62,912 nucleotides of DNA from positions 1-62,912 of the forward strand of contig JAFGWM010000012.1 of NCBI GenBank assembly GCA_016937155.1, read 5' to 3'. The notes beneath the pieces are model-generated. The model saw only the letters and a program-made list of their open reading frames with translations, did not search any database and was not told the origin of the DNA. Shown here in pieces: positions 27,989 to 32,088 of the stretch (positions within the stretch are counted from its first letter, which is position 1; each line of letters begins with the position of its first letter). Origin of the DNA: Deltaproteobacteria bacterium. Lineage in GTDB: Bacteria > Myxococcota_A > Polyangia > HGW-17. The position numbers and the translations under genes are program-made.

Positions 27989-29638
27989 TTACTCCTCATA
28001 GTATGCAATTACCCAGGATGATAAACTGATGCCTCTCCAGTTATCACCTGAATACGGTTCATCATTGTAGAAGGCTCCATAAGAAATCAGAATCTGCGAT
28101 GCAGCGGCAGTTTGTTCAGTAATATCATATGTTACCAGTGGAACTTCCTTTCCTGGGCACCAGCCACTTCTTCCATACCACCAGGTGCCGTACTGGTTTG
28201 GCACTGTACCATCTTCAGTCTGCCACATGCATCCTATTGTTTGACTGACTTGAGGGAAATCTCTCATATATTCATTGCTATTGATTTCAAAATAATGTTC
28301 TGTGTTGCAGAACTCAGCACAGTTTCCCGGCTGACTCATTCCATGGCCTGTTATTGAGGTGGCAAGTTCCATTTTTGTATAACCGGTAGGGACTGTAACA
28401 GTAATGTCAGGAAAGTTTTCATTGTATGTTTCGTTAAACTCGTTGTAACCATGCCATAAAGGAAATGCTATGGTATGATGGTATGGCTTTCCTGTGGATG
28501 CCAGAAGCATGTTCAATGAAACTTTCCATGGATCCTGACTGTAATATTTAAACCGGAATGTCCCACCATCCCTGAAGAGACCCAAAAGAGGGCTGATGTC
28601 GTGGACCCATCTTCCGTGTCGGTGATAGCTTGTTATCCACCGACCAATTTCTAGATTACAGCTTTCATCAGTTTCATCAGCACAAAGGTAAAGATATACC
28701 AGTCGATCCCATTCCGGGCAGTATCCAACTTCTCCTCCATCACAGCTGTTTGTCATATCCAGTAATAGAGTGTCATAAATTTCCATTTCCTCACTGGAGG
28801 GCAGTTCAACTTCGAAAAAATGATCCCCGGATACAGCTACTTCTTCAATGAGGGTAATGTTCTCAGGAGCAAGATTTTTAAGAGCCTGTTCTCTATCACT
28901 TTCAAAATTGTAATAAATTGTTTCATTTCGAACCAGTGAAAGGTTTGGTGCAAACCATCCCACATTGCTGTCATATCTGAAGGGATCAGCAAAGCTTCCT
29001 ATGTAGCGTATTCTCTGAAAACGATCTATCCCAAAACCAAAACCAGGAGATGGAAAATGGTGTGAAGCATAACCATCAAGCTCGCGGGCTCTGCCGGTAA
29101 CAAAATGAACTCTAGATTTCCAGTGATCTGATTTTGTCTGACTGATTGTTTCATAAAAATCATCAAACTGTTGTGATAGTGCACTGAGTTTTTCATTTCG
29201 GATTTCCGAATCCGCATCATCGGAAACAAAGAAAAGATGTACATTCTCCGGGATATTTTGGAGAAGTGCATCTACATCATCAGCCCAGGTCATATCAGGA
29301 AAGGAACTGTTCTGGGAGGGGTTATCCGGTATGAATAATATACTGTCACAACCCGTCCAGATTTCACTGAGGGTGATTGAGCCTTCTGTTGTCTCCACAG
29401 TGAAATCGGCAGCAATCGAATAAAGAGTATTGTCTCCGGCCAGGTTGTTAAACGGTCTTGTCGGTTCATCAATCTCATCACAGTAAGGGTTTGTTATTAC
29501 TTCCCCTCCATCTGAATCACTGGAATCAGCATCAATGGAAGCATCATTTACATTGTTTGAATTTTCAGTGTTATCATCACACCCGATAATTATTACTAAA
29601 CTGAACAGAAAAACTATTTTAATAATCAATTTTGTCAA
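27989..29638 (-). CDS. PNGase F-like lipoprotein with N-terminal thioredoxin-like domain
   Basis: A 549-residue protein whose last 260 residues match peptide-N-glycosidase F: WDRLVYLYL, SITGHGMSQPGNCAEFC, the TWWYGRSGWCPG core and a conserved Cys pattern. PNGase F cleaves N-glycans from Asn. The N-terminal half has an Asp/Ser-rich tether followed by a thioredoxin/AhpC-like segment (FTVETTEGSITLSEI, ILFIPD). A lipoprotein signal ends in IIIGC. I place the start at the TTG at 29638 because GGAGGG lies six bases before it; the frame is open to 29719 but has no ribosome site. Not all catalytic residues were checked. Confidence 0.82.
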   Translation of the reverse strand: MTKLIIKIVFLFSLVIIIGCDDNTENSNNVNDASIDADSSDSDGGEVITNPYCDEIDEPTRPFNNLAGDNTLYSIAADFTVETTEGSITLSEIWTGCDSILFIPDNPSQNSSFPDMTWADDVDALLQNIPENVHLFFVSDDADSEIRNEKLSALSQQFDDFYETISQTKSDHWKSRVHFVTGRARELDGYASHHFPSPGFGFGIDRFQRIRYIGSFADPFRYDSNVGWFAPNLSLVRNETIYYNFESDREQALKNLAPENITLIEEVAVSGDHFFEVELPSSEEMEIYDTLLLDMTNSCDGGEVGYCPEWDRLVYLYLCADETDESCNLEIGRWITSYHRHGRWVHDISPLLGLFRDGGTFRFKYYSQDPWKVSLNMLLASTGKPYHHTIAFPLWHGYNEFNETYNENFPDITVTVPTGYTKMELATSITGHGMSQPGNCAEFCNTEHYFEINSNEYMRDFPQVSQTIGCMWQTEDGTVPNQYGTWWYGRSGWCPGKEVPLVTYDITEQTAAASQILISYGAFYNDEPYSGDNWRGISLSSWVIAYYEE

Positions 29639-29908
29639 TTCAATCCCTCCTGAGTGTGAGTTCATACCGTCTGTATTTTTATCATGAAAGTGATGTTTCA
29701 AACAGACTAATCTATGCATTCATGATTCATTGAGGAGAAAAGACCTCAATTGTAGCAAAAAATTTGAAAAAACGTTGTCCATATTATTGTTACAGATTTC
29801 ATAATTGAGAGATATGCCAATATCTTTCCAATCCAATTGGACGTTGTTGTGAGTTTTATGTTATCTTCTGAAAATGCAGACAGACTATGCTGAAACATGG
29901 AGGTTGTA

Positions 29909-30336: not shown

Positions 30337-31410
30337 TTAGTGGCATTTGCAACTAGGAACCAGAATATGAGAGAGGCAGCATGGGGGCATCATATCAGGA
30401 TTAAGTTCAGGAGGAGGTGTTTTTTGTGATTTTTTCATGGGTTCACCTTCCGGGCCTCTAATATCAGTTATTTTCATAGAGTTATGCGTAGGCTGCTCAT
30501 TTCTCGTTTTGGGTGTTTCAGGGGTGTCTGTTTTACCCCCGGATGTTTTCTGTCCAGCACAGTTTATCATTATTGTGCTTGCCGCTAATATTGCTGCCGC
30601 AGTGGCAATTTTGGAAGATTTTTTTTGAGTATATACAGGTATTAGCGGACACATCCAACTGGAAGTATTTACTGTATTTTCATTGAGATGCTCTCTTAAA
30701 AAATATCCTGATTTAATTTTGTCATTTCTGTAATAAAAAGAGGAGCCACTTGATGCTGGACAGATTCCTGAAGAGCCGGGTAACATTGTATCACTGAGAG
30801 TGGTAAAATATGGAAAATCAGTTCCTTCGAGAAGTTCATAGATTTCATAATCAGTGCAATCTACTGATGGTCTGCCGCTGATCCCACGGGAAAGAAGCCA
30901 GTGTCTGGGTTTTATCTGACGTAATAATTCTACCAGCTCAGTAAATGAACCGATGTTTGGTTTCATTACAACACTTTGAATACCCCAGTTAAGCCCGGTA
31001 TTTTCAAGCATCCTGATTGCCTGCATGATTTTAGCAAAACTGCCACTTCTACGTATCGAATCATGAATTTTCTGAGTTCCATCAAGGCTGAACCAGACGA
31101 AATCCAGTCCGGCACCTATAAGGTCAGTCTGAAGCCTTTCATTCCATGTATAGCCGTTTGTTATAATCTGAACATGAACATCCAGCGATTTTATTGAACG
31201 TACTGTATCAGCCAGATTTGGAACTAGGGTTGGTTCACCACCGCTTAAAACCACTGCATCCAAATCCCTAAAATTATCAAGGTGATTTGAAATATCAATA
31301 TCACTGACGTTAATACCGGACGCTGTTTTCACAATGCAGTGCTTACAGGAAAAACTGCAACTGGATGTGAGAAACCATTCAACAACTTTTGGAGAGTAAT
31401 TATCAGTCAT
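30337..31410 (-). CDS. Radical SAM protein with lipoprotein-like Cys-rich C-terminal tail
   Basis: A 357-residue protein. Residues 1-215 are a radical SAM domain with the CxxxCxxC cluster motif (Cys18, 22, 25) and LSGGEP at 55-60. Cys217 and Cys254 lie in a short C-terminal Cys-containing region (SPASM-like but reduced). From 263 a lipoprotein-type signal follows in the same frame: KKSSK, a run of Ala/Ile, then MINC at 281-284. The last 19 residues contain Met-Met-Pro-Pro-Cys-Cys and Cys-Lys-Cys-His, a possible metal site. The join is encoded by an A8 run (30619-30626 on the plus strand as T8). I infer an enzyme fused to its peptide substrate, unproven. Confidence 0.78.
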   Translation of the reverse strand: MTDNYSPKVVEWFLTSSCSFSCKHCIVKTASGINVSDIDISNHLDNFRDLDAVVLSGGEPTLVPNLADTVRSIKSLDVHVQIITNGYTWNERLQTDLIGAGLDFVWFSLDGTQKIHDSIRRSGSFAKIMQAIRMLENTGLNWGIQSVVMKPNIGSFTELVELLRQIKPRHWLLSRGISGRPSVDCTDYEIYELLEGTDFPYFTTLSDTMLPGSSGICPASSGSSFYYRNDKIKSGYFLREHLNENTVNTSSWMCPLIPVYTQKKSSKIATAAAILAASTIMINCAGQKTSGGKTDTPETPKTRNEQPTHNSMKITDIRGPEGEPMKKSQKTPPPELNPDMMPPCCLSHILVPSCKCH

Positions 31411-32055
31411 TTATAAATCCTGTGGTTTGACCCATGTTATAACTTTCCCTATTATTCGAAAATCTTCACGATAAGTAACATCAATTGGTCGATATTTTTT
31501 ATTTTCCGGGATTAGAAAAACTTTTTCATTTATTATTTTCAAACGTTTTACAGTAGCCTCATCACCTATTAAAGCTGCTATAATTTCCCCTGGTTCAGCC
31601 ACCGGCTGCTGACGGATAACAACAAAGTCACCATCATTGATTCCACAGTTCACCATTGAATCACCTCGTACATGAAGCGCAAAATGTCGCCCACCGGATG
31701 AGAGTTCTTCGTCAATGGTGATTGTGCCCTGATGATTTTCCTCGGCAAAAATTGGAATACCAGCTGCAATTTCTCCAAGAACAGGAATACTGGTTGTGAT
31801 ACTGCCATCGGAAGAACCAGAAAGATATTCTGTTTTAAGAATTTCTATACTTCTGGCTTTGTATGGGCTTCGCCGGATGAAACCTTTGGACTCCAGTTTT
31901 TTAAGCTGTTCATGAACACTCGGAGCTTTAATTTCAAGTGATGCAGCAAGCTCTCGTGTTGAAGGTGGAAACCCGTTGCGGGTCATAAATTCGTGTATGG
32001 TCTCCAGTAGCCTGCGCTGGGATTTTGTAAGTTTTTCAGAAGATGTCCGTACCAT
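31411..32055 (-). CDS. lexA: LexA repressor
   Basis: A 214-residue SOS repressor with a winged helix-turn-helix at about 1-75 (ELAASLEIKAPSVHEQLKKLE), the autocleavage pair Ala98-Gly99 in GEIAAGIP, catalytic Ser133 in RGDSM and Lys170 in EATVKR. Length and order match. I prefer the ATG at 32055, preceded by AGGTGGGGG; a GTG at 32067 is in frame too. A CTGTC-N7-GACAG palindrome directly upstream could be its own operator. It follows the radical SAM gene's start by zero spacing on the same strand, so the two may share a transcript. Confidence 0.95.
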   Translation of the reverse strand: MVRTSSEKLTKSQRRLLETIHEFMTRNGFPPSTRELAASLEIKAPSVHEQLKKLESKGFIRRSPYKARSIEILKTEYLSGSSDGSITTSIPVLGEIAAGIPIFAEENHQGTITIDEELSSGGRHFALHVRGDSMVNCGINDGDFVVIRQQPVAEPGEIIAALIGDEATVKRLKIINEKVFLIPENKKYRPIDVTYREDFRIIGKVITWVKPQDL

Positions 32056-32071
32056 TTGAACCCCCACCTTT

Positions 32072-32088
32072 CTGTCAGAAGTCGACAG
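32072..32088. promoter_or_regulatory. Candidate LexA operator
   Basis: CTGTC, seven bases, GACAG form a 5-7-5 inverted repeat 17 bases before the preferred lexA start. LexA boxes differ strongly between phyla, so the sequence could not be matched to a known consensus; the location is what supports it. Confidence 0.35.

Follow-up and report, generated by a model that had tools for sequence, protein, structure and literature searches.

Organization of the fused gene

The window, by which we mean the whole stretch of 62,912 nucleotides that was analyzed, carries at 30337-31410 on the minus strand a single uninterrupted frame that starts with ATG and codes for 357 amino acids. Five parts follow one another in its product, namely, a radical SAM core, a SPASM-like stretch that is eroded, a lipoprotein-type signal inside the chain that ends in Cys, a Pro/Lys-rich linker, and the C-terminal PCCLSHILVPSCKCH. 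These parts and the gene directly upstream are as follows.

30337..31410, minus strand: complete fused gene of 357 aa, radical SAM plus internal lipoprotein-type signal plus Cys-rich tail (ORF; full-length homologue in genome G001)
30925..31371, minus strand: radical SAM core, residues 14-162 (Pfam PF04055, Radical_SAM, E 6.4e-17; AlphaFold pLDDT at least about 90 over residues 60-170)
31336..31359, minus strand: CxxxCxxC 4Fe-4S motif, C18/C22/C25 (from the sequence; invariant in clade alignment A4)
30649..30762, minus strand: eroded SPASM/twitch-like stretch, residues 217-254, two Cys left (alignments A4 and A5; pLDDT below 50)
30559..30624, minus strand: internal lipoprotein-type signal, residues 263-284, consisting of KKSSK, a hydrophobic run and MIN-C284 (hydropathy scan and lipobox comparison; model helix 266-282)
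30394..30558, minus strand: linker rich in Pro, Lys and Thr, disordered, residues 285-339 (pLDDT for the most part below 50; residues common to G001)
30343..30387, minus strand: C-terminal motif, residues 342-356, PPCCLSHILVPSCKC (invariant Cys in seven tails of GTDB family f1; C-x-x-[S/M]-[H/R] core in G008, G051 and G063)
31411..32067, minus strand: lexA, directly upstream of the fused gene (Pfam LexA_DNA_bind, 1.1e-18; same neighbor in G001; genomic context)

An earlier sequence-only reading had taken the N-terminal part for a radical SAM protein, and the Pfam match over residues 14-162 confirms this. The CxxxCxxC motif and the radical SAM domain are both present, which makes the protein a member of the radical SAM superfamily, and it has GGEP at residues 57-60 and the two later Cys, C217 and C254. 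That reading was also correct in placing the signal, which begins with KKSSK at residues 263-267, the linker and the Cys tail in the frame of the enzyme, with the end of the tail, residues 340-357, reading MMPPCCLSHILVPSCKCH; all lie in one 357-aa ORF and the layout is the same in G001. In the AlphaFold model the radical SAM core is confident, residues 266-282 form a helix and the linker is disordered. Since the SPASM stretch and the linker are modelled without confidence, the position of the tail relative to the active site is not readable from the AlphaFold model. Three SPASM Cys are retained in the G001 relative and more in those from G005, G008 and G051 (alignments A4 and A5). An internal start at Met253 was judged unlikely by eye, being without a Shine-Dalgarno-like sequence and not conserved beyond the genus.

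The TAA stop of lexA is immediately followed by the start codon ATG of the fused gene, and the other neighbor is a convergent ORF with no significant family match. No RRE partner (PlpY-like) adjoins the fused gene, and PqqD-like genes are found in the genome solely on contigs C12 and C75.

Conservation of the fusion and of its tail

The relative from the same genus (G001:C12) has the same five parts and aligns over residues 4-357 with 37% identity (E 7e-56). Its gene also adjoins lexA, its signal ends in LAAC and its tail is PCCYSHILRPGCKC. When the tails alone were compared, from just after the lipobox, the identity between the window protein and this relative was 41% (E 1e-9). Eight complete genes combine a radical SAM part, an internal lipobox and a C-x-x-[S/M]-[H/R] tail, namely, those of the window, G001, G005, G006, G007, G008, G051 and G063, and the six beyond the window and G001 come from three GTDB families. 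Within GTDB family f1, where eight genomes were searched, six further genes or fragments have the same tail type (one each in G004 and G007, two each in G005 and G006), while G003 has a radical SAM fragment only, cut by a contig end, and G002 has none. The named members are metagenome bins of Myxococcota/Deltaproteobacteria: MM_PC_MetaG.mb.210, HGW-Deltaproteobacteria-17, HGW-Deltaproteobacteria-22 and SZUA-580.

Two observations that might have told against the fusion had been named beforehand. Homologues in which the tail Cys are not conserved are not what is found in family f1, where the four tail Cys are invariant in all seven tails aligned. Degenerate read-through past a frameshifted stop is contradicted by the seven other complete fused genes, none of which has a stop or a frameshift, and by the dN/dS of the linker and of the terminal motif, which is below 1 in all three species pairs of genus g4, a value that is based on few codons.

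Between G004 and G006:C92 the region after the lipobox is nearly identical (pN 0.024, pS 0.11), whereas the region before it is not (pN 0.37, pS 0.53); between G006 and G007 the pattern is reversed and the region before the lipobox is closer than the tail. From these sequence comparisons, a tail swap within the genus, with the tail moving as a module, is suggested. The loci of the G004/G006 pair, in which the lipobox and tail are near-identical and the preceding region differs, are L052 and L055.

Other searches returned little. A scan for close relatives with the whole protein gave no match among 84,980 named genomes. A profile of the tail, run on 290 genomes of the class with few candidates scored per genome, found beyond f1 merely low-complexity lipoprotein look-alikes. 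The DNA pattern CC...CxC, searched in the class and in all genome contigs, was outside f1 about as common as its reversed control, and none of those matches was plausible as a radical SAM tail or as a lipoprotein. Nor was a convincing stand-alone CxxSH lipoprotein found near any locus fetched.

The internal lipoprotein-type signal

The segment ahead of C284 had been called a textbook lipoprotein signal. This is true of the relatives, whose boxes are canonical (LAAC, LGTGC, LGSTAC, GLTAC), but overstated for the window protein, whose box, MINC, is imperfect with Asn at -1. A lipobox-like Cys follows a hydrophobic segment in 26 of 26 fused proteins compared. The residue before this Cys is N in the window protein and H in one other, and the remaining 24 have G, A or S; these boxes were judged by hydropathy and pattern, and three of the 26 were set by hand. 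Against the usual description of a bacterial lipoprotein, the hydrophobic segment and the lipobox Cys are both present but the N-terminal position is not, since the signal begins at residue 263. The stand-alone YG lipoproteins described below also have a cytoplasmic stretch, either a 35-aa leader or a zinc ribbon, ahead of the lipobox, and therefore an internal signal is usual in such systems. LspA is encoded in the window's genome, and genes for it are present in G000, G001, G008 and G051.

The window clade and its sister clade

With a profile of the full-length proteins the clade scores at least 295 bits, short fragments excepted, versus 235 bits at most for other radical SAM proteins among the matches listed for the class. 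In a phylum sample of 379 genomes, which contained few close relatives, only G000 and G001 were found at E 1e-70. Outside the family, clade tails read PCHYSHVGC (G008), PCMMSHIGC (G051), PCMMSHVGC (G063) and PCMCVSHMMC (G049), while G074 has the signal without the motif. The clade member at L253 (G049:C195) has an in-frame TAG between the radical SAM core and SPASM and is otherwise complete through the tail.

A tree was made of radical SAM cores, with the tails excluded, in which 12 window-clade cores were compared with 18 YG-fused and 34 unfused radical SAM proteins. The 12 cores lie on one side of a branch with an SH-aLRT of 92, and the tail-type label changes once on the tree versus a mean of 11.2 when shuffled, in a set of which the clade part was gathered in part with a profile containing tail columns (A4). 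By these sequences the tail type tracks the radical SAM clade, imperfectly, the exceptions being G074, in the clade with no CxxSH, and G250, outside the clade with a CCMSR tail. The window protein sits on a long branch, and because of long branches the order inside the window clade is unsure. The fused tail of G250 (L264, 1297-2742, minus strand) reads CCMSRMVMPP, near the window's motif, by either convergence or exchange.

The sister set consists of 18 radical SAM/SPASM proteins of the same class; a lipobox like that of the window clade joins them to lipoproteins that are mostly rich in XYG-P. The label YG-fused covers all 18 fused proteins outside the window clade, including L264 with its CCMSR tail and L013, which has DYS-P instead of YG-P. 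Fusions of the XYG-P type, often with CC repeats, are those at L226 (4371-6155, plus strand; G001, with DYGVEPxC and CC repeats), L233 (1412-3085, plus strand; G006), L241, L281, L282 and L284, and further ones are at L255-L257, L017, L019, L260, L262 and L269-L271. On the strength of their sequences, the XYG-P fusions are candidate self-contained spliceases. It had been proposed that a stand-alone lipoprotein should be sought beside a shorter radical SAM gene in relatives. No CxxSH version was found, but one clade away such pairs do exist, in which a separate small YG lipoprotein adjoins a radical SAM gene; its lipobox is preceded by either a zinc ribbon or a leader, both cytoplasmic.

L014, 1047-1457, plus strand: separate small YG lipoprotein
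L021, 1117-1467, plus strand: separate small YG lipoprotein
L290, 3307-4394, minus strand: separate small YG lipoprotein
L292, 3281-4545, minus strand: separate small YG lipoprotein

The sampled f1 genomes also have a conserved unfused radical SAM protein of the YG clade (L224, 3547-4692, minus strand; L227, L229-L231, L234-L237), which mostly adjoins a conserved gene for a protein of roughly 430 aa and has no YG lipoprotein alongside.

Comparison with known systems

Among NCBIfam models, TIGR04103 and TIGR03913 match best the YG-clade radical SAM proteins, fused and paired, that were scanned, with up to 284 bits, which is below the cut-off. TIGR04103 (nif11-class rSAM maturase 3), which we take to be the PlpX family, also heads the NCBIfam matches of the three proteins of the window clade that were scanned. 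The relatives score 95-280 bits with it, far under the cut-off of 725 bits, and the window protein is not among the best 25 model matches listed for TIGR04103. A review gives IPR026482 for the PlpX family. The model TIGR04133, 'rSAM_w_lipo', also links radical SAM/SPASM with a lipoprotein, a partner that is implied by the model name, but the window protein reaches 60.7 bits where the cut-off is 425, and its lipoprotein is fused. In borosins of the OphMA type, a modifying enzyme and its substrate peptide are in a single polypeptide; unlike the proteins described here, they have methyltransferase chemistry, an unrelated fold and no lipoprotein signal.

The PlpX splicease removes tyramine and its published target is XYG (PMC10533398, PMC11002830). 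Like PlpX, the proteins described here are of the radical SAM/SPASM peptide maturase type, and the XYG motifs of the sister clade are the published PlpX target (PMC10533398); the splice tags of PlpX read RP[GL]YGLPI, which is like XYG-x-P of the sister clade. Because of this likeness and the TIGR04103 match, it is plausible by analogy that the lipoprotein is the substrate in the whole group, that is, in both clades. The window protein differs from PlpX in that its tail is without YG, no PlpY-like gene is adjacent, and the putative substrate is fused and lipoprotein-like, whereas the PlpX substrate is a separate Nif11-type precursor. DAG-RiPPs are RiPP-lipoprotein hybrids that are reported to be modified in the cytosol by another enzyme class and then lipidated (PMC12636315). 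They have the C-terminal target motif behind the lipobox, a layout that the window protein shares, but they depend on MNIO enzymes, small separate precursors and N-terminal signals and not on a radical SAM enzyme in one chain with an internal signal. The sequence-only reading knew of no such fused system. We found no description of a radical SAM-lipoprotein fusion in the open-access literature searched, although each half has a precedent, in lipidated RiPPs (PMC12636315) and in PlpX spliceases (PMC10533398).

Proposed function and alternative explanations

Judging from sequence, we give somewhat better than an even chance to the proposal that the single chain encoded by this gene combines a peptide maturase with the substrate on which it acts, the tail being modified while still in the cytoplasm and then exported in the form of a lipopeptide. 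The radical SAM part at the N-terminus would fold in the cytoplasm, where the tail, by way of the flexible linker, would present the target motif PCC-L-SH-IL-P-C-x-C to be modified in cis or by a neighboring copy. The hydrophobic segment would then serve as a lipoprotein signal and the tail would cross the inner membrane, C284 would be lipidated, and signal peptidase II would probably cut ahead of C284, so that the enzyme would stay cytoplasmic and a lipid-anchored modified peptide would be outside. Observed are the architecture and its conservation, the agreement of tail type with enzyme clade, and LspA in the genome; from these we infer that the tail is the substrate, that the events occur in this order and that cleavage takes place. 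A maturase with an attached, exported or membrane-bound substrate had been suggested earlier; this suggestion is supported in part and is the best-supported reading given the match between tail and clade, the recurrent lipobox and the sister lipoproteins that are both fused and separate. Since no stand-alone CxxSH lipoprotein was found, it is from the YG sister clade that the case for the tail as substrate in the window clade is drawn. Tyramine excision in the window tail is unlikely because Tyr is absent from its motif and is not conserved among the relatives; our guess, made with low confidence, is that the invariant Cys are modified by cross-linking or oxidation. It counts against the preferred reading that the SPASM of the window protein is without most of its Cys, which is unusual for an active peptide maturase, and so do its long branch, its imperfect lipobox, the absence of an adjacent RRE partner and the exceptions G074 and G250. 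With this erosion and the imperfect lipobox, the window copy could have lower activity than the related proteins.

The explanation that we would place next, as unlikely, is a membrane-tethered maturase, in which the segment ties the enzyme to the inner face of the membrane, the exported Cys tail is a metal- or redox-binding or docking module, and the substrate is another protein. The internal segment could be an uncleaved anchor, four Cys within 13 residues fit a metal or a disulfide, and a stand-alone substrate of the CxxSH type was not found. However, a plain anchor needs no lipobox-like Cys and all 26 fused proteins have one after the segment, and the tails of the sister clade are repeat-rich, substrate-like and also encoded separately. 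It is quite improbable that an unmodified small lipoprotein is hitched to a radical SAM enzyme that acts on something unrelated, the fusion merely coupling their expression, because the tail type tracks the enzyme clade and many fusions pair the same enzyme family with the same kind of lipoprotein, even though domain fusions are common and the tail seems to shift between genes as a module. The loss of SPASM Cys in the window and G001 proteins would agree with the tail Cys being extra ligands of the auxiliary Fe-S cluster of the enzyme in place of the eroded SPASM. We regard this as very improbable since G005:C524, G008 and G051 keep many SPASM Cys and yet have the tail, and a lipoprotein signal sits between enzyme and tail. 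An annotation artefact or a decaying gene, with two genes merged through the loss of a stop or an error in sequencing, is hardly credible: the A8 run AAAAAAAA at about 30620, ahead of the signal, the long branch and the in-frame TAG in the G049 relative speak for it, but the same one-frame fusion occurs in seven other complete genes, the tail is conserved, and the relatives already contradict an artefact.

A more specific form of the preferred reading is possible, though we would put it a little short of an even chance from the sequences. A one-polypeptide maturase would modify its own CxxSH tail and the lipoprotein signal peptidase would sever it, so that each enzyme molecule would yield a single modified peptide with a lipid anchor, and the sister clade would do likewise with many XYG splice sites. 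If this is the case, then two recent ideas, protein remodelling by radical SAM enzymes and lipoprotein-routed RiPPs, would be joined in one self-contained gene, and many bacteria of the class would be predicted to bear peptides of altered chemistry on the cell envelope. Each such gene would by itself be a test system, for peptide splicing in the YG clade and for what may be a new modification in the CxxSH clade.

Other features of the window

The palindrome CTGTC-N7-GACAG is upstream of lexA at 32072-32088 of the window; in the whole genome it occurs in exact form just twice, each time within the window. Regulation through this palindrome was considered and rejected, as it is absent upstream of lexA in G001 and its frequency in the genome is not above expectation. 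At 27989-29719, on the minus strand, the window also codes for a lipoprotein-like protein that matches the C-terminal (8.9e-23) and N-terminal domains of PNGase F.
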